A DNA stretch of 43,143 bases from positions 1-43,143 of the forward strand of contig VBOY01000010.1 of the NCBI GenBank assembly GCA_005893295.1. Direction: 5' to 3'. This stretch comes from Candidatus Eiseniibacteriota bacterium. GTDB taxonomy: Bacteria > Eisenbacteria > RBG-16-71-46. The notes below the pieces were generated by a model that was given only the letters and a program-made list of their open reading frames with translations, was not told the origin of the DNA and made no database searches. Positions 29,237 to 41,139 of the stretch are shown piece by piece. Numbering within the stretch: position 1 is the first letter of the stretch; each line of letters opens with the position of its first letter. A program made the translations under genes and the position numbers.

Positions 29237-29538
29237 GGCGACAGCTCGTCCGGGCCGGCCTTGTCGGCGGACCTCAAGTCCAGCTCGAGTGGCCGCGTGG
29301 CCGGCGCCTCGCCCGGCTCCTCCGCCAGGCGCTCGATCCGCCGCTCGGCTTCCTCCAGCGTGCGCGTCAGGCGCCGCGACAGCTGGACCCCCTCCTCGTA
29401 GCGAGTCAGGGACTCCTCGAGCGAAAGCGTGCCAGCTTCCAGCTCGTCCACGATCGTCTCGAGCCGCTCCAGGGCCTGCTCGAAGCTCGGCCCCGCGTCG
29501 TCGTCGGCTCCTCCCGTGGCGTTCTTCTTAAGCGCCAT
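29233..29538 (-). CDS. xseB: Exodeoxyribonuclease VII small subunit
   Basis: SFEQALERLETIVDELEAGTLSLEESLTRYEEGVQLSRRL. Confidence 0.93.
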   Translation of the reverse strand: MALKKNATGGADDDAGPSFEQALERLETIVDELEAGTLSLEESLTRYEEGVQLSRRLTRTLEEAERRIERLAEEPGEAPATRPLELDLRSADKAGPDELSP

Positions 29539-30892
29539 GCGCTCCCTCTGGACGCACCGTCTCGATCCGGGCGTCCGCTTCCCCGCGCGCGAACTCGACC
29601 GTGATCCGATCCCCGACCGCCACGTCGGCCGCCGCGCGCAGCAGCCTACCGTCGTCGGCGCGCACCAGGCAATACCCGCGTTCCATCACCTGCCGCGGCG
29701 ACAACGCCCGCAGTCGGTCGGCAGCCCCGCCGAGTCGCGCCCGCCGTCCCGCGATCCAGTTGGCGAGTCGGCCCTCGAGCGCGCGCGCCACCTGCGCGAC
29801 GTGCTCACGGCGCTCGAGCAAGGTGCGCGGCCACGACCGCAAGCCATAGCGGTCGCGGGCCGCCGCGAGTCGCGCCACGGCCGCGGCCAGCGCCCCGAGT
29901 GCGCGCCCGCGCAAACGTTCCGCCAGCTCGTCGACGCGTTGCTGCCACATCCCGAGCACCTCGCGCTGGCGCCGAAACCCGTACTGGCCAATCAGCGCCG
30001 CGAGCCGCTGGCGTCGCTCGGCGATGGTCTGCGCCATGACGCGCTCGATCCGGAACCCCAGCGTTCGCACCCCCCGCGCGATCTCCGCGCAGTCGCGCAC
30101 CGCGATCTCGGCGGCGTTCGAGGGCGTGGCTGCTCGACGATCGGCCGCCAGGTCGGAGAGCGTCCAATCCACCTCGTGACCGACCGCCGAGATCACCGGG
30201 ATCGAGGAGGCAGCGATCGCGCGCACCACGATCTCCTCGTTGAACGCCCACAGGTCCTCCAAGGATCCGCCGCCGCGGCCGACAATCAACAGGTCCACCG
30301 CGCCGTAGCGGCCGAAACGCTCGATCGCCGCCGCGATCTCGGCGGCCGCGCCTTCGCCCTGGACCCTGACCGGCGCCAGCACCAGGGCGATCGGGGGCCA
30401 TCGGGACCGCAGCCCCGTCACCAGGTCACGCACCGCGGCCCCGACGGGTGACGTGACGAGGCCGATCCGCCGCGGATATCGCGGCAGGGGGCGCTTGCGG
30501 CTCTCGTCGAACAGGCCCTCGGCCTGGAGCCGGCGCTTGAGCTCCTCGAGCGCGAGCAGCAGGGCGCCCACGCCCGCGGGGCGCAGTTCCTCGACGATCA
30601 GCTGGTAGCGGCCCCGCGGCTCGAAGACCGAGACCGAGCCGAAGGCTTCGACCTCGGAACCGTCCCTGAGCTCGAAGGCGAGCCGACTCGCCGCCCGACT
30701 GTAGAGCGCGCACTCGAGCTGCGCCTCGCGGTCCTTGAGCGAGAAGTAGACATGGCCGCGGTCCGAGCGGCGCACCCCGGTCACTTCGCCCCGCACCCAT
30801 ACCGCGGGGAACGCCTCGGCGAGTGTTTCCTTGACCAGGCGCGTCAGCGCGATGACGGTGAGGACGCCCTCGCGCGCCGGCGAGATCGCCAT
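29528..30892 (-). CDS. xseA: Exodeoxyribonuclease VII large subunit
   Basis: VWVRGEVTGVRRSDRGHVYFSLKD, IGLVTSPVGAAVRDL, RGGGSLEDLWAFNEE, PVISAVGHEVDWTLSDLAADRRAATPSNAAE. Confidence 0.96.
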   Translation of the reverse strand: MAISPAREGVLTVIALTRLVKETLAEAFPAVWVRGEVTGVRRSDRGHVYFSLKDREAQLECALYSRAASRLAFELRDGSEVEAFGSVSVFEPRGRYQLIVEELRPAGVGALLLALEELKRRLQAEGLFDESRKRPLPRYPRRIGLVTSPVGAAVRDLVTGLRSRWPPIALVLAPVRVQGEGAAAEIAAAIERFGRYGAVDLLIVGRGGGSLEDLWAFNEEIVVRAIAASSIPVISAVGHEVDWTLSDLAADRRAATPSNAAEIAVRDCAEIARGVRTLGFRIERVMAQTIAERRQRLAALIGQYGFRRQREVLGMWQQRVDELAERLRGRALGALAAAVARLAAARDRYGLRSWPRTLLERREHVAQVARALEGRLANWIAGRRARLGGAADRLRALSPRQVMERGYCLVRADDGRLLRAAADVAVGDRITVEFARGEADARIETVRPEGAHGA

Positions 30893-30927: not shown

Positions 30928-32607
30928 CTAGACCTTCACGCGGGCCAGCAAGCGTTCCGCGGCGCGCACCGTGTTCGCCACCAGCATCGCCACGGTCATC
31001 GGCCCGACGCCGCCCGGCACCGGGGTGAGCGCGCTCGCGACGCGCGACACCGACGCGGCCTCGACGTCGCCCGTGAGGCGTTGCTTCCCTCCGCCGGCCG
31101 CGACGCGATGGATGCCGACGTCCACGACCACCGCCCCGGGCTTGACCCAATCCGCGGTGACCGCCTCGGCGCGGCCGATCGCCGCCACCAACAGGTCGGC
31201 CTGGCGTGCCAGCTCGGCGAGGTCTAAGCCGCTCTGACTGTGGCCCACGGTGACCGTCATGTCCACGCCACGCATCGAGAGCAGGTTGGCGAGCGGGCGA
31301 CCGACGATGTTGCTACGCCCCAGCACCACCACATGGCGTCCGGCGAGCGGCACGTGGTAGTAGCGCAGCAGCTCGAGAATGCCGCGCGGGGTGGCGGGCA
31401 CGAATCCGGGCACACCGGCCGCGAGACGGCCCGCGCTCACGGGATGGAAGCCGTCCACGTCCTTGTCGGGTGGCACCGCTTCGAGCACCGCCGCGGCCTC
31501 GGCTGGAGCGGCGAGGGGGAGCTGGACCAGGATGCCGTGAATCGCGGGATCCGCTCCCAAGGAGCGCACCCGATCGACCACCGTGCTGGTGTCGGTGCCC
31601 GCCGCGAGCGTGACGTGGCGGGCATCGATCCCGACCTCGGCGCAGGCAGCACTCTTCTTCTTGAGATAGATCGCGGAGGCCGGGTCGTCGCCCACCGACA
31701 CCAGAGCCAACGCGGGAACGATCCCCCCCGCCCTGAGGTCGCGCACGCGTTCACGGACGGCGCCGCGCACCGCCGCCGCCGGCTCTTCGCCCGCGAGCAG
31801 CCGAGCCGGGCCGGCCGGCCCCGCCTCCCAAGGGATCTGCAGCCGCTGGATCGAGGCCGCTCGCCCCGAGCGCGGATCGATCCGCAGCAGGATCGCGTTC
31901 ATGCGCAGGTCGCCGGTGGCGGGCGTGAAGCGCTCCGGCAGCAGGGTGAGGAATCGGCGCAGCGCGACGTGACGATCCATGCCGATCACCGAGTCGAAGC
32001 CGCCGGTCATCCCGGCGTCGCTCAAGAACGCGGTCCCCCCTGGCAGCACGCACTCGTCGGCGGTCTGAACGTGGGTGTGGGTGCCGATCACGGCGCTCGC
32101 GCGGCCGTCGAGGTACCAGCCGAGCGCGATCTTCTCGGCCGTGGTCTCGGCGTGGATGTCCACCAGCACGACGCGGCACTGATCCTTGAGGCCCTGCAAC
32201 GCCTGGTCGGCGGCGCGGAACGGGCAGTCGGCCTCCTTCATGAACACGCGCCCCAGCAGGTTGACGATCCCGACCGGCGTGCCGTCTCGAGCCGGAAACA
32301 CCGCAAAGCCACGCCCCGGAGTCTCGAGCGGAAGGTTGGCGGGGCGCACCAGGCGCGGTTCCTGGGAGAGATAGGCGAAGCCCTCCTTGCGGTCCCACAG
32401 GTGATTTCCGCCGGTGAGCACGTCCACGCCGGCCGCGAACAGGGCGGTGGCGGAGTCGTGCGTGAGCCCGAAGCCGCCGGCCGAGTTCTCGCCGTTCGCC
32501 ACCACCAGCGACACGTCGTATCGGCGTCTCAGATCGGGCAGCAGGGCGCGCACCACGTCGCGCCCCGGCGCCCCGATCACGTCGGCGATGAACAGGAGAT
32601 TCAGCAT
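30928..32607 (-). CDS. Fusion: YmdB-type metallophosphoesterase (N-terminal) + FolD methylenetetrahydrofolate dehydrogenase/cyclohydrolase (C-terminal)
   Basis: One open frame of 559 aa from MLNLLFIADVIGAPG. YmdB motifs: ADVIG, NGENSAGG, GGNHLWD, DIHAETTAEK, GTHTHVQTADE. FolD motifs: GDDPASAIYLKKKSAACAEVGI, GILVQLPL, KDVDGFHP, VVLGRSNIVGRPLA, LTPVPGGVGPMTVAML. Confidence 0.85.
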   Translation of the reverse strand: MLNLLFIADVIGAPGRDVVRALLPDLRRRYDVSLVVANGENSAGGFGLTHDSATALFAAGVDVLTGGNHLWDRKEGFAYLSQEPRLVRPANLPLETPGRGFAVFPARDGTPVGIVNLLGRVFMKEADCPFRAADQALQGLKDQCRVVLVDIHAETTAEKIALGWYLDGRASAVIGTHTHVQTADECVLPGGTAFLSDAGMTGGFDSVIGMDRHVALRRFLTLLPERFTPATGDLRMNAILLRIDPRSGRAASIQRLQIPWEAGPAGPARLLAGEEPAAAVRGAVRERVRDLRAGGIVPALALVSVGDDPASAIYLKKKSAACAEVGIDARHVTLAAGTDTSTVVDRVRSLGADPAIHGILVQLPLAAPAEAAAVLEAVPPDKDVDGFHPVSAGRLAAGVPGFVPATPRGILELLRYYHVPLAGRHVVVLGRSNIVGRPLANLLSMRGVDMTVTVGHSQSGLDLAELARQADLLVAAIGRAEAVTADWVKPGAVVVDVGIHRVAAGGGKQRLTGDVEAASVSRVASALTPVPGGVGPMTVAMLVANTVRAAERLLARVKV

Positions 32608-32657: not shown

Positions 32658-34223
32658 CTACCGCGCGTACTCGACCGCACGGGTCTCGCGGATCACGGTG
32701 ACCCGGATCTGACCAGGGTACTCCAGCTCCTTTTCGATCCGGCGCGCGATCTCTCCGGCCAGCCCTTGGGCGCGCGCGTCGTCGACTTGCGCGTGCTCGA
32801 CCAGGATGCGGATCTCGCGGCCGGCCTGGATGGCGTACGACTTCTCTACGCCCGGGAATTGCGAGGCGATCTTCTCCAGGGCCTCGAGTCGCTTGATGTA
32901 GATCTCCAGGCTCTCGCGCCGCGCGCCGGGACGCGCCCCGGAGACCGCGTCGGCGGCGGCGACCAGGACCGGCCACAGGCTGCCGCCCGCGTAGTCGTCG
33001 TGGTGGTAGCCGATCGCCTCGAGGACGGGCTGAGGCTCGCCGTAACGCGCGGCCACCTCCATGCCGAGCGCCGGGTGGGTTCCCTCCTGCTCGTGGTCGA
33101 TCGCCTTGCCGATGTCGTGCAGCAGGCCGCCCCGCTTGGCGGTCTTCTGATCCAGGCCGAGCTCCGCGGCCATCATGCCGGCCAGATGCGCGACCTCGAT
33201 CGAATGGCGCAAGATGTTCTGTCCATACGAGGTGCGGTAGTGCAGGCGCCCGAGCAACTGTTGCAGCTCGGGATGGATCCCATGCACGCCCACCTCGAGG
33301 CACGCCAGCTCGCCGAGCTCGTGGATCCGACTTTCCACTTCGACCTTCACCTTGGCGACGATCTCCTCGATGCGCGCCGGGTGGATCCGTCCGTCGGCCA
33401 CCAGACGCTCCAGGGCCTGCCGGGCGATTTCGCGGCGCACCGGATCGAATGCGGACAGGATCACCGCCTCGGGCGTGTCGTCGATGATGACGTCCACGCC
33501 GGTGATGGTCTCGAAGGAGCGGATGTTGCGGCCCTCACGGCCGATGATGCGGCCCTTCATGTCGTCGCTCGGCAGGTGGACGACCGACACCGTGGACTCG
33601 GACACCTGGTCGCCGGCGTAACGCTGGATCGCGATCGTGACGATGCGGCGGGCCTCCCGCTCGGCGTTGCGCTGCGCGTTCTCTCGCACGTCGGCCACCA
33701 AGCGGGCGGCCTCGGCGCGCGCCTCGCTCTCGATCGCGGCGACCAGCTGAGCTTTCGCCTCCTGGGCGGTCATGCCCGCCACCTTCTCGAGGCGCGTGCG
33801 TTGCTCGAGGAGCAGGGCGGCGAGCTGGTTCGAGCGCTCGTCCACTGTTTGCTCGCGGCGCGCCAACTCCTGTTCTTGCCGCTTGGCGTCGCGTTCTTTC
33901 TTGTCGATCAGCTCGACGCGGCGGTTGAAAGCCGCCTCGCGCTCCTGAAACGCTCGCTCCGCGGCGATCTGGCTGGTGCGTGAGGCTTGGACTTCGCGTT
34001 CGGCTTGTTGGCGCAGCCGCAGCGACTCCTCCTTGCTCTCGAGCAGCGCCGAACGCCGCACGGATTCGGCTTCCCGCCCGGCGTCCTCGAGCAACCGTTG
34101 AGCCTCACGCTCGGCGCTTCCCAGCTTGTGCCCCGCCTGCCGGGCGCGCAGCAGGTAGCCCAGCACAAACGACACGACGGCACCGAGAGCGATGCCGCCG
34201 ATCCAGACCAGAGTCGTCATCAT
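32658..34223 (-). CDS. rny: Ribonuclease Y
   Basis: N-terminal TM plus coiled coil; [67 protein letters not shown] domain [22 protein letters not shown]. Confidence 0.97.
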
Positions 34224-34234
34224 GGACTCTCCAG

Positions 34235-34265
34235 GACCGGTCGCGGCCATGCGCCGCGACCGGTC
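34235..34265 (-). promoter_or_regulatory. Perfect 13-bp hairpin immediately upstream of the rny RBS
   Basis: GACCGGTCGCGGC-GCATG-GCCGCGACCGGTC, then CTGGAGAGTCCATGATG; no U-tract. Confidence 0.7.
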
Positions 34266-34949: not shown

Positions 34950-35246
34950 TCAGGTCTCGAGACGTTCCAGCTTCTTGGCCAGCGCCTCGATCCGCGATGC
35001 CACTTCGCGCCGCTCGCCCTGCCACTCGCGCTGCTCCTTGCGCAGCGCGTGCACCTCGGCGACCAGTGCGGCGACATCCTGCCCCTGAAGCTTCTCTTCC
35101 GCATCGCGCAATCGCCGCGAGAACTCCTCCTTCTCGTGCTCCAAGCGCTGCTTCTCTTCACGTAGACGTTGGACCAGCGCGGCGGCCTTTTCGACGCGCT
35201 CCGCCAGCAGGTCGAGATCGGTATGCACTACTGTGGTCTCGTTCAT
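34950..35246 (-). CDS. Short coiled-coil protein, ZapB-like
   Basis: MNETTVVHTDLDLLAERVEKAAALVQRLREEKQRLEHEKEEFSRRLRDAEEKL...; ATGA overlap with pheT; next to zapA. Confidence 0.65.
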   Translation of the reverse strand: MNETTVVHTDLDLLAERVEKAAALVQRLREEKQRLEHEKEEFSRRLRDAEEKLQGQDVAALVAEVHALRKEQREWQGERREVASRIEALAKKLERLET

Positions 35247-37684
35247 CGCTCTCTCAGTCGGCCGCCGCACGCCCGGGCCACGGCTGCGGACATCTGGTCT
35301 TGAACAGTCTGGACTTCGGACTCCTCCAGCGTTCGTCCGGGATGTTGGAACTGGACCGCAAACGCCAAGCTCTTCATCCCCGCCGGGGTGCCCGGACCAG
35401 CATACACGTCGAACAACTCCAGCGATTGCAGCCATTCACCGGCAGCTCCCCTGAGCGCCCCCTCGAGCTCCACGTAGGTCACGGACTCGGGCACGTAGTA
35501 CGCGAGGTCACGACGGACCGGAGGGAAGCGACCGGGGGTGGCCGCGCGTGGGGCCGCTGCGGCGCGCCGCGACAGCGAGTCGACCAGCACCACGAACAGG
35601 TGCACCGGGACCTCGATGTCCCAGACGCGGAGCAGCGAGTGCCCCAGCGTCCCCGCCCATCCAATGCGCGAAGCCCCGCTCGCAACTTCAGCGCTGGCAC
35701 CGGCTTTCCAACCGGGCGCAGAATAAGCTCGCCATTCGAGCGTGTCAACGCCCATCTCCTCGAGCCAGGCCTCCCATAGGCCCTTGGCGTCGAAGAAGTC
35801 CACCGGTTGCTGCGCCGCGTCGTGGGCGTGCTCGAAACGCGGGCCGGTCGCCAGGGCGGCCAGGATCTGGGTCTCGACCGGGAGCTCGGCCGCGCCGGGC
35901 GACTCGGCGTCCGCCCTCGGCGCGCAGAATCCTGTCCCGACCTCGAACAGCCGAACCGCCGCCATGCCCTGTCTCAGGTTGTGCGCACAGGCCCGCAGCA
36001 GGCCCGCCACTGGATTGGGTCGCAACACGGCGCTCTCGCGGCTCATCGGGTTCATGAGGGTTACCAGCTCGAGCTCTGCTTGGCCCAGCAGAGCCGCGGT
36101 CGCCCGCGCCTCCTCCTCGGAGATCAGGCTCGTGGTCCACGCCTCGGTGAGTCCACGTGCCGCCATCGCGTTGCGGGCCCGTTCGAGCAGGCGCTCGTGT
36201 GCCCCGCGCACCGCGAGGACGCCATGGGTATCGGGAGGTGCTTCGGGGATGCGGTCGTAGCCGTGCGAGCGACCCACCTCCTCGATCAGGTCTTCCTCGA
36301 CCGTCACGTCGGGGCGCCAGCTCGGTACGTGGACCACGAGCGGATCGCCGCGCTCGACCCGGAACTCCAGGGATTCGAGATGGCGCGCGATCTCGTCGGC
36401 TTTGACCGAGACACCGAGCAGGCGCGCGCAACGGCCGACACGCAGCCTCAGCGTGCGCCCGCTGGGGCGCATTTGGTTGCGCTCGCGGGCCGCCCCGAGG
36501 CGGAAGCCCGGCGAAAGCTCGCGCAGCAGCGAGACGAAGCGCGCCGTGGCCGCCGAGCCTCCCTCGGGGTCGACGCCGCGCTCGAAGCGCCGCGAAGCCT
36601 CCGTGGCGAGTCCCAGGGCGCGCGCCCCGCGGCGGATGCGACGCGGCTCGAACCACGCGCACTCGAGCAGGAGCGACGTGGTCGACTCGGTGACCTCGGT
36701 CTCGAGTCCGCCCATGATGCCGGCCACGGCGGCCGGGCGCTCCCGATCCGCGATCACCAGCACCTCGGGGTCGAGGGAGCGCTCCTTGCCATCCAGCGTG
36801 ACGATGGTCTCCCCCGCCGCCGCGCGCCGCACCCGAATCGCCCGGCCCTTGAGCTTCGCCAAGTCGAAGGCGTGCAGCGGCTGCCCGAGCTCGAGCAGCA
36901 CCAGGTTCGTGAGATCGACGACGTTGTTCACCGAGCGTTGGCCGACCGACGCCAGACGGCCGACCAGCCAGGAGGGCGAAGGGCCGACCCGGATCGCTTC
37001 GATCGTCTGCGCGATGTAGCGCGGACATCCCTCGGGATCGGAGAGGTCGAGATCGAAGTCGTTCCGGCCCGACCACCGCGCCGCGAGCCACGCCTGCGCC
37101 GCGCGGGTCCAGCGGGCTCCGAGCGCCGCGCGCACCTCGCGCGCCAGCCCCGCGATCCCCAGCCCGTCGGGACGATTGAACGGCACCTCGACTTCGAGCA
37201 CCTGATCGGAGGGGCCGAGCACGCGATCGAGCGGAGTGCCGAGCGGGAGCTCATCGGCGCGACCCGTGAGCTGTGTCAGATCGACGATCCCCTCCTGATC
37301 GTCCGAAAGACCCAGCTCGGCCGCCGAGCACAGCATGCCCTGGCTCTCGACCCCGCGGATCTTGCTCTTGCGGATCGCCGTGCCGTTGGGTAGACGCGCC
37401 CCCACGGTCGCGAGCGGCACGATCATGCCGGCGCGCACGTTGGTGGCGCCGCAGACGATCGACAGTTCACCCGCGCCGCCGTCGACCCGGCACAGGGTCA
37501 GCCGATCGGCGTCGGGGTGGCGCGAGACCTCGAGCACCCGGGCCACCACCACCCCGCGATACTCGCGCCCGAGGGTCTCGACCGCCTCGACGTAGAATCC
37601 GCGCAGGGTGAGCGTCTCGGCGAGGGACTCGGCCGAGACGTCGAGCTCCACCCAATCGCGCAACCACGACATGGGTAGCTTCAT
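35243..37684 (-). CDS. pheT: Phenylalanine--tRNA ligase beta subunit
   Basis: [63 protein letters not shown]-type B3 region; C-terminal FDX-ACB domain ([14 protein letters not shown]). Confidence 0.96.
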   Translation of the reverse strand: [813 protein letters not shown]

Positions 37685-37738
37685 GGCGTCAAGCTACGCG
37701 GCGGCGCCCGAGCTTGTCCAGGACCTCCCCCGGCACGC

Positions 37739-39574
37739 TCATCCGCCGCGTTCCGTGGCCGCACGGCGCGACTCGGCGGCGATCCATTCGTCCACCACCT
37801 GCTCGAGCAGCGTCAGGGGCAGCGCCCCGTTCGTCAGCACGACGTCGTGAAACCGCTTGAGATCGAAGCCGGGACCGAGCCGATCCATCGCCCGCTGCCG
37901 CAGCTCGAGGATCTTGAGCTGTCCCACCTTGTAGGCGCACGCCTGGCCCGGGTTCACGATGTAGCGCTCGACCTCGGTCGTCACTTCCTTCTCGCGCATG
38001 CCGGTGGTGCGCATCATGTAGTCGATCGCCTGCTCGCGGGTCCAGCGCTTGCGGTGGATGCCGGTGTCCACCACGAGTCGCACGGCGCGGAACAGCTCGG
38101 CCTGGAGCGCGCCCAGAGAGTCGTAGGCGTCGCGGTGGAACCCGTTCTCGAGCGCGACGCGCTCGGCGTAGAGGCCCCAGCCCTCGACGTACGCCGTGAA
38201 CGGGATGATGCGGCGGAAGAACGGCATCCCCTTGAGCTGCTGGGCGATCGTGAGCTGGAAATGATGGCCCGGGATCGCCTCGTGGTAGGCGGTGGTGGGC
38301 ATGCCGAGCCGGCTGGTCTCGGCAGGGTCACGCAGATTGACGAAGAAGATTCCGGGCCGCTCCCCGCCGATCGACGCCGGCTGGTAGTAGGCGGCAGGAG
38401 CCGTCGCCTCGCGGAAAGCCGGCACGCGCTTCACCTCGACCCCGAACCCCGGGCGAACCCCGAACAGGGGCGCGACGCGCCGATTCGCCTCGTCGATGAT
38501 CGCCTGGTAATCGGCCAGGATGCGCGTCCGCCCCGAGTCGCCCGGCGGGTAATGGAAGCGCGGCTCGCCCGCGAGCTGGATCATGGTGGCCGCGAGGTCG
38601 CGGGTCGGGTAGCCGTGCCGAGCGAGGATCTCCTTCATCTCCGCTTGGAGGCGTGCGACCTCGCGCAGGCCGAGGACGTGGATCGTGTCGGCGGGCAGAT
38701 CGGTCGTGGTGTTGCTCCGCAAGCATTGGTCGTAATAGGCGTCGCCGTTCGGAAGCTTCCACACGCCATCGTCTTCACTCGCCACCGCCTCGAGGTGAGC
38801 GCAGGCAGCGATCAACCGATCGTAGGCTGGATGAACGGTACGCCGAACCTCGTCTGCGACGCGGCGCTCAAGACGGGCCCGCTCCCCCCGCGTGAGGCCC
38901 GGCATGGTGTCGATACGAGCCGCGAAGGTGCGAACCAACGGATTCGAGTCCGCCGGGACGCGGCGGAAGCTCTTCATTTCGGCCGACACCTCGCGGAGCA
39001 CGAAACGCGGCGGGATCACTCGCATCCGCTCGCGCAGTCGCAGCCCCTCGATCACCTGGTCGTACGCGACGCCGAAGCGGGCGAGCCGCTTGACGTAGTC
39101 CTCGGCATCGCGCGGCCGCCGCAGCGGGTGCGTGTTCATCATGAAATCGGGCAGCGCGCTCTGCATGCCGAAGAGCTGGTTCACCGGATAGTCGTAGAAC
39201 AGGAAGCGATTGCCGCGCTGCTGGTCGGTGAGGAACCAGTCGAGCACCTGATAGGACAGGCGCTGGCTCTCGGACATCCGGTCGGTCCGATACCGGTGGA
39301 GGATCTGGATCTGGCGATCGAGGAAGCGCGCCTCGCGCCGGGCGAAGGTGACCGAAAAATCGTCGAGGTCGCCGGCGAAGAAGTGCACCGGAGTGCCGTC
39401 GAGGATGCCGAGCCCGGTGAGCAACATCGGGTGGCGAAGCGCGTACTCGATGAACACGCGCGCGTAGTAATCGTCGATCCGCCATGGGGTGAACCAGATC
39501 GTCGGCACCAGGAAGATCGCCGCCGCGAGGGCCAGCCCCAGCGCGCCGAGCGCGAGCCGCTTGCGTCTCCTCAT
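37739..39574 (-). CDS. DUF885-type membrane-anchored/exported protein (putative metallopeptidase fold)
   Basis: Signal anchor MRRRKRLALGALGLALAAAIFLV; TAYHEAIPGHHFQLTIAQQL; YVEGWGLYAERVALENGFHRDAYDSLGALQAELFRAVRLVVDTGIHRKRWTREQAIDYM. Confidence 0.88.
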   Translation of the reverse strand: MRRRKRLALGALGLALAAAIFLVPTIWFTPWRIDDYYARVFIEYALRHPMLLTGLGILDGTPVHFFAGDLDDFSVTFARREARFLDRQIQILHRYRTDRMSESQRLSYQVLDWFLTDQQRGNRFLFYDYPVNQLFGMQSALPDFMMNTHPLRRPRDAEDYVKRLARFGVAYDQVIEGLRLRERMRVIPPRFVLREVSAEMKSFRRVPADSNPLVRTFAARIDTMPGLTRGERARLERRVADEVRRTVHPAYDRLIAACAHLEAVASEDDGVWKLPNGDAYYDQCLRSNTTTDLPADTIHVLGLREVARLQAEMKEILARHGYPTRDLAATMIQLAGEPRFHYPPGDSGRTRILADYQAIIDEANRRVAPLFGVRPGFGVEVKRVPAFREATAPAAYYQPASIGGERPGIFFVNLRDPAETSRLGMPTTAYHEAIPGHHFQLTIAQQLKGMPFFRRIIPFTAYVEGWGLYAERVALENGFHRDAYDSLGALQAELFRAVRLVVDTGIHRKRWTREQAIDYMMRTTGMREKEVTTEVERYIVNPGQACAYKVGQLKILELRQRAMDRLGPGFDLKRFHDVVLTNGALPLTLLEQVVDEWIAAESRRAATERGG

Positions 39575-39631
39575 CGATGCCCCCTTGAGACGCCGGTGGC
39601 CCCGCGGCCGGGCCGGCATCCGCGTTCGGCG

Positions 39632-40783
39632 TTAGAACTGGCTCAGGAAACGCAGGTCGTTCTCGAGGAACAGCCGAATCTCGGGCACTCCGTAGCGCAG
39701 CATCGCGATCCGCTCGAGGCCCATGCCGAAGGCGAACCCGGTCACTTCCTCGGGATCGTAGCCCACCGCGCTGAACACGTTCGGGTGCACCATGCCCGCC
39801 CCCAGCACCTCGAGCCAGCCGGTGCCCTTGCACACCACGCAGCGTTTCTCCCCCGCGGGGGTGTGCTCGATGCCGGTGCCTCCGCACAGCACGCACGCGA
39901 CGTCCATCTGCGCCCCGGGCTCGACGAACGGAAAGTAGACCGGCACCAGTCGGGTGCGGATCTTCGCGCCGTAGATCTCCCGCGCAAAGGCAGCGAGCGT
40001 GCCCTTGAGGTCCGCCAGGCTCACGTCGCGATCGACGAACAGGCCGTCGATCTGATGGAACTGATCCATGTGCGTTGCGTCCACGTGCTCGGCGCGATAC
40101 ACGCGGCCCGGGAACACCCGGCGCAGCGGTGGCTTGCGCTCCTCCATCGCGCGCACCCAACCCGGCGAGGTATGAGTGCGCAGCAGGACCTCGGGGCGCA
40201 CGAAGTACGTGTCGTGGGCGTCGCGCGCGGGATGGTCGGTGGGGAAGTTGAGCTTGGTGAAATTGTAGGGCTCGAGCTCGACCTCGGGGCTCGTATAGAC
40301 CGAGTAGCCCATGCCGTGGAACAGATCGAGCAGCTCTCCCTGGATCTGCGCCAGCACGTGACGCCGGCCGACCCATGGACGGCGCCCGGGCAAGGTGAGA
40401 TCGAGTCCCGTCGCTGCCCGGGCTTCGGCCTCGCGCTCGAGCTGGGAGCGCCGCGCCGCTTCGATCTCGGCGAGCCAGCGTTTGACCTGGTTGAGCCCAC
40501 GGCCGCGCCGCTTGCGCTCGTCGAGCGGCAATCCCGGCAGATCGCCGAGGGCCAGGGTGATGACGCCGCGCTCGCGACCGAGCAGCGCCGCGCGACGCTG
40601 GTCGAGGGCGGCAGGATTGGCGGCGCCGGCCAGCACCTCGGCCCCGCGTCGGTAGAGTGCGGCCAGCTCGTGATCGAGCGACTCCAGCTCGGCGAGATGC
40701 TGCGCGTGCTCCGGCGCGAGCCCGGCCGGGTCCCCCGCCTCCCACGCCGGGTCGATGCCCAGGTGCGGGACCGCGGCGTGCAT
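39632..40783 (-). CDS. pheS: Phenylalanine--tRNA ligase alpha subunit with CxxC-CxxC insertion
   Basis: LNFPTDHPARDAHDTYFV, LLRTHTSPGWVRAM, VYRAEHVDATHMDQFHQIDGL, WLEVLGAGMVHPNVFSAVGYDPEEVTGFAFGMGLERIAMLRYGVPEIRLFLENDLRFLSQF. Confidence 0.96.
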   Translation of the reverse strand: MHAAVPHLGIDPAWEAGDPAGLAPEHAQHLAELESLDHELAALYRRGAEVLAGAANPAALDQRRAALLGRERGVITLALGDLPGLPLDERKRRGRGLNQVKRWLAEIEAARRSQLEREAEARAATGLDLTLPGRRPWVGRRHVLAQIQGELLDLFHGMGYSVYTSPEVELEPYNFTKLNFPTDHPARDAHDTYFVRPEVLLRTHTSPGWVRAMEERKPPLRRVFPGRVYRAEHVDATHMDQFHQIDGLFVDRDVSLADLKGTLAAFAREIYGAKIRTRLVPVYFPFVEPGAQMDVACVLCGGTGIEHTPAGEKRCVVCKGTGWLEVLGAGMVHPNVFSAVGYDPEEVTGFAFGMGLERIAMLRYGVPEIRLFLENDLRFLSQF

Positions 40784-41139
40784 CAGGCTTCCGCCGACTT
40801 GGCGACCTCCGCGAGCCGGGCGAAGGCTGCGGCGTCGCGAACCGCGAGGTCGGCCAGCAGCTTGCGGTTCACTTCGACCTGAGCTCGCTTGAGCCCGGAG
40901 ATGAGCGTGCTGTACGAGAGCCCGTTGATGCGGGCCGCCGCGTTGATGCGCGTGATCCACAGCCGCCGGAAATCGCGCTTACGCGTCCGCCGATGCTCGT
41001 AGGCGAACTGACCAGCGCGCTGCACGGTCTGAAGCGCGCTCTTGAACAGCTTGCGGCGCCCGCCGTAGGCGCCCTTGGCGGCCTTGAGGACTTTGCGACG
41101 TCGGGCGCGTCCCGGGACGACCGTCTTGGTACGTGGCAT
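40783..41139 (-). CDS. rplT: 50S ribosomal protein L20
   Basis: [70 protein letters not shown]. Confidence 0.98.

Follow-up and report, generated by a model that had tools for sequence, protein, structure and literature searches.

A YmdB-FolD fusion gene conserved in one family of Candidatus Eiseniibacteriota

We analysed a window of 43,143 nucleotides, contig VBOY01000010.1 of the Candidatus Eiseniibacteriota assembly GCA_005893295.1, which carries at 30928-32607 on the (-) strand a single open frame of 559 codons, running from an ATG at 32607 to a TAG stop. This frame encodes a YmdB-type phosphodiesterase followed by a FolD enzyme and is the sole copy in its genome. Directly upstream, across a gap of 50 bp, lies the RNase Y gene rny (32658-34250, (-); Pfam RNase_Y_N, KH and HD), which bears out the placement of the fusion gene beside rny in the initial annotation. 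Directly downstream, after 35 bp, xseA (29528-30892, (-); Pfam Exonuc_VII_L) encodes the large subunit of exonuclease VII. Elsewhere in the window, at 35243-40960 (-), a DUF885 gene (37739-39619) lies between pheS (39632-40960) and pheT (35243-37684), an interruption that is unusual for pheST, which normally form a pair.

Both halves of the 559-aa protein are complete. Pfam recognizes YmdB (PF13277) at residues 5-256 over 253/253 positions (E 7e-101; 337 bits, cut-off 27), followed by the two FolD domains THF_DHG_CYH (PF00763; residues 271-385, 115/115 positions, 103.6 bits, cut-off 32.8) and THF_DHG_CYH_C (PF02882; residues 388-552, 158/160 positions, 201.1 bits, cut-off 27). The YmdB domain also reaches a TIGR00282 score of 268 against a cut-off of 254; the FolD half scores below the organism-specific NCBIfam FolD cut-offs that were shown, as is expected for a lineage that those models do not represent. 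In the AlphaFold2 model both domains are folded (mean pLDDT 88), with a low-confidence linker and, at a pTM of 0.59, an uncertain inter-domain arrangement, and a Foldseek search with the model finds solved FolDs as well as YmdB 4B2O. Domain matches, structure and conservation delimit a YmdB domain at 31834-32607 (-) (residues 1-258) and a FolD domain at 30928-31806 (-) (residues 268-559), the latter having lost its own start methionine; between them lies a linker at 31807-31833 (-) (residues 259-267, PWEAGPAGP, with low pLDDT at 263-265). The one unbroken frame with a complete YmdB and a complete FolD, which the initial annotation had read from the DNA, is confirmed by the frame itself and by Pfam, and all YmdB and FolD motifs quoted there are found in the protein at the coordinates given.

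Relatives of the window's genome carry the same fusion. Our sample comprised 20 genomes of its GTDB family, in 18 of which, from 13 genera, the junction is readable; one of the remaining two gave no match and the other has the FolD end alone at a contig edge. All 18 readable junctions are fused, with no stop, which rules out a recent stop loss. The fusion is thus conserved in 17 further genomes, and close relatives with separate genes, the counter-evidence that had been envisaged at the outset, do not occur among the family members with a readable junction: split genes appear only in more distant families. The 17 relatives share 65-75% identity with the window's protein, except for one (L021, 60%) that carries a duplication, and the copy from Candidatus Eisenbacteria bacterium GL140_6_metabat_35 (L033, taken as the same as L013 because the two contigs are equally long, and counted once) places the family in Candidatus Eiseniibacteriota. 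In the maximum-likelihood trees of YmdB and of FolD alike, the fused copies (18 rows) group together as a single clade at 100/100 support, which shows that the fusion arose once. Each family genome has one FolD/YmdB locus; no second stand-alone FolD was found in the family genomes and no second YmdB in the window's own genome, the sole extra match in the family being a PF02882 hit of 58 positions in G010, below the cut-off. In one member (G006; L137 8186-9220), frames that by eye resemble DinB-like and glyoxalase-like proteins lie between the fusion gene and xseA, and a similar extra distance between these two genes is seen in G014, G003 and G008.

Since the window's assembly is fragmented (189 contigs, 87% complete), a missed stop or an indel at the junction could in principle have produced the long frame. 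The presence of the same fusion in 17 other genomes, with differing linker lengths, leads us to reject such a sequencing or assembly error, the probability of which is practically nil.

The linker evolves quite differently from the two enzymes that it joins. Between residues 258 and 268 it measures 9, 10, 11, 13, 14, 17 or 23 codons in the family, seven lengths that cannot be explained by fewer than six indels, each a multiple of three, and it contains a stop in none of the members. Its dN/dS is about 1 (0.7-1.6, rough values obtained from 12-14 codons per pair), while YmdB and FolD are both under purifying selection (0.17-0.35). The linker sequence thus drifts and what is kept is the open frame through it, as would be expected if ribosomes must cross the linker to make FolD.

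We considered whether the fused frame nevertheless yields a separate FolD, by internal initiation or by proteolysis, so that the cell would contain two ordinary enzymes. Bacterial linkers can be cleaved, and a GTG or TTG stands 12 codons into FolD in 13/18 fused genes, at the position of V280 (GTG, 31768-31770, (-)), which is the first in-frame GTG inside FolD here. This start is missing in 5/18 genes, however, and its use would remove strand 269-270 and the beginning of helix 1 in the AlphaFold2 model; in our view this is an ordinary hydrophobic position in genes where GTG is abundant. Between an ATG that lies inside YmdB, 32 codons ahead of the first FolD residue, and this GTG, a codon scan finds no in-frame ATG, GTG or TTG, just as the initial annotation had stated. 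In a stretch of 16 codons about the start of FolD, the 18 genes together hold 11 such codons where their frequency in the remainder of the gene predicts 28, a depletion that is partly due to the linker's low Val and Met content. Shine-Dalgarno-like matches score no higher at the junction than in other parts of the 18 fused genes, and neither a conserved internal start nor a conserved Shine-Dalgarno site was found there. The GGGAGG at 31824-31829 (-), which had been proposed as a possible relic of a separate folD start, forms part of codons W260-E261-A262 and is not conserved; with the nearest candidate, the V280 GTG, 53 nt away, there is no start at a usable distance, and neither a functional nor a relic role can be upheld in a region depleted of starts. 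Release of a free FolD therefore appears improbable to us, and the protein is predicted to be translated as a single chain of roughly 59 kDa.

How the two genes came together is suggested by their arrangement in other families of the phylum, for which our search took in 47 genomes. In 20/20 two-gene genomes from eight other families, ymdB and folD are neighbours with a stop between them in every case, at a spacing that ranges from an overlap of a few bases to about 0.2 kb. The nearest outgroup, a genome of the same order (G020), shows an apparent ATGA overlap of the ymdB end with folD, and at three loci (L018, L019, L020) folD begins in frame with ymdB, either immediately behind its stop or one codon further on; loss of a single stop codon would fuse these pairs. 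The initial annotation had offered the loss of a stop between neighbouring genes as one possible explanation, and the finding of adjacent, split genes in other families supports it. These split loci make rny-ymdB-folD-xseA the ancestral order here, and the same arrangement recurs in two Gemmatimonadota genomes (L053, L129).

As far as these tools show, the YmdB-FolD architecture is confined to one family; both enzymes belong to families that are already known. Samples from four other phyla, about 1,250 genomes in all (395 Gemmatimonadota, 396 Acidobacteriota, 399 Bacillota and 64 Latescibacterota), yielded no second, independent fusion, where those phylum-sample searches that came back empty carried no positive control. 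The sole full-length in-frame match in the four phyla, in G218, is interrupted by a TAA at the junction and is no fusion, and it shows that the search could detect one at about 50% identity. In a plasmid collection no record spans 80% of the fusion protein, and we found no description of a YmdB-FolD fusion in the open-licence literature, where matches to the E. coli 'YmdB' concern an unrelated macrodomain protein.

Both active sites are intact throughout the fused family. B. subtilis YmdB binds its two metals through D8, E39, N40, N67, H150, H175 and H177 and uses H68/D71 for catalysis (PMC10406935); the corresponding metal ligands D9, E40, N41, N68, H152, H177 and H179 and the catalytic pair H69 and D72 are invariant (100%) across the fused proteins. 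That enzyme cleaves cyclic nucleotides in vitro, its physiological substrate being unknown (PMC6123443); according to one proposal, YmdB opens the cyclic phosphodiesters that RNA decay yields as end products (PMC4993169). The designation of YmdB as an established 2',3'-cyclic nucleotide phosphodiesterase in the initial annotation hence holds for in vitro cleavage and is too strong for the physiological role (PMC6123443). Going by the conserved residues, the YmdB half most likely acts as its unfused relatives do, in phosphodiester hydrolysis.

The FolD half likewise keeps its catalytic Y314, K318, Q362 and D385 (in YxxxK, VQLPL and DVDG) in 100% of the fused family, and most likely converts methylene-THF to 10-formyl-THF, as its unfused relatives would. 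Formate-THF ligase is the other common route to 10-formyl-THF. It is encoded in 11/20 family genomes, including that of the window, and gave no match in G009, whose completeness is rated at 100% and whose only FolD is the fused one; from what is known of the pathway, the FolD domain should therefore be active. The ligase is patchy in this family, and genomes with completeness ratings of 96-100%, among them G009, G002 and G011, lack it. In the last of these, the FolD of L021 (G011:C115) contains a near-identical in-frame tandem duplication of 67 aa holding YLRRK and VQLPL, which is either genuine or an assembly artefact.

With two presumably active enzymes on one chain, the fusion might have been selected because it couples the folate/NADP state to cyclic-nucleotide and RNA turnover, with control running in one direction or the other; a coupling of this kind was one of the options raised in the initial annotation. 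Its retention throughout the family over deep divergence would fit such a role, as would the four-gene order kept across the phylum and in the two Gemmatimonadota genomes, which implies that co-expression was already favoured. Against this, the linker is constrained neither in sequence nor in length, and YmdB and FolD have no known substrate in common. Moreover, five genomes of another family of the same class (f10) match FolD but not YmdB, and both f10 loci that were inspected (L135, L136) read rny-folD-xseA, with folD kept between rny and xseA and ymdB missing from the cluster. Finally, once the FolD start has been lost, retention of the fusion needs no selective benefit. We consequently hold functional coupling to be unlikely, and slightly more doubtful still is its specific form of a regulated device, in which folate or NADP(H) bound at FolD would tune YmdB, or the reverse, so that the RNA degradation that follows RNase Y would be tied to one-carbon status in this family.

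We favour instead, with a probability of roughly 85%, a bifunctional enzyme composed of an N-terminal YmdB metallophosphodiesterase, a short flexible linker and a C-terminal FolD, which arose by a single merger of co-transcribed neighbours. The ancestral state would have been an rny-ymdB-folD-xseA cluster like that of the relatives, where ymdB and folD abut or overlap by a few nucleotides. In the ancestor that the family shares, the ymdB stop and the folD start would have been lost and the genes merged; the fusion would then have become fixed, with the decay of the folD start making it hard to undo. From then on, both enzymes would have come from the fused frame alone. This loss of the gene boundary is a scenario that needs no benefit from coupling. 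The tether would set a 1:1 stoichiometry and co-localisation of the two domains, and it is probably not an allosteric device.

The fusion adds a lineage-wide domain architecture for two widespread enzymes and can serve as a marker for one Eisenbacteria family. It offers a clean case of neighbouring genes that merged once, the merger becoming difficult to undo because the downstream start was lost. Should the two domains cooperate, the fusion could provide a clue to the physiological substrate of YmdB; should they not, it cautions against inferring function from fusion alone.

Compared with known systems, each part of the locus is familiar and their union is new. With B. subtilis YmdB (TIGR00282; 4B2O) the fusion shares a full-length domain at 46% identity in structural alignment, all dimetal ligands, the His/Asp catalytic pair and the adjacent rny, yet the YmdB chains of solved structures (252-286 aa) extend no further than this domain, whereas here a complete C-terminal FolD follows. 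With FolD, the bifunctional methylene-THF dehydrogenase/cyclohydrolase, it shares the complete two-domain structure and the Y/K/Q/D active-site residues, at a target TM-score of about 0.9 to solved FolDs; unlike an ordinary FolD, it lacks a start of its own and has YmdB joined at its N-terminus. Other Eisenbacteria families have an unfused rny-ymdB-folD-xseA cluster, which is identical in gene order and orientation but retains the ymdB stop and a separate folD start. FolD is also part of a larger multi-enzyme polypeptide in the eukaryotic C1-THF synthase (MTHFD1), in which it is fused to formate-THF ligase, and human MTHFD1 is among the Foldseek matches of our model. There, however, FolD is N-terminal and its partner belongs to the same pathway, whereas the partner of FolD in the Eisenbacteria fusion is a phosphodiesterase without a known folate link.
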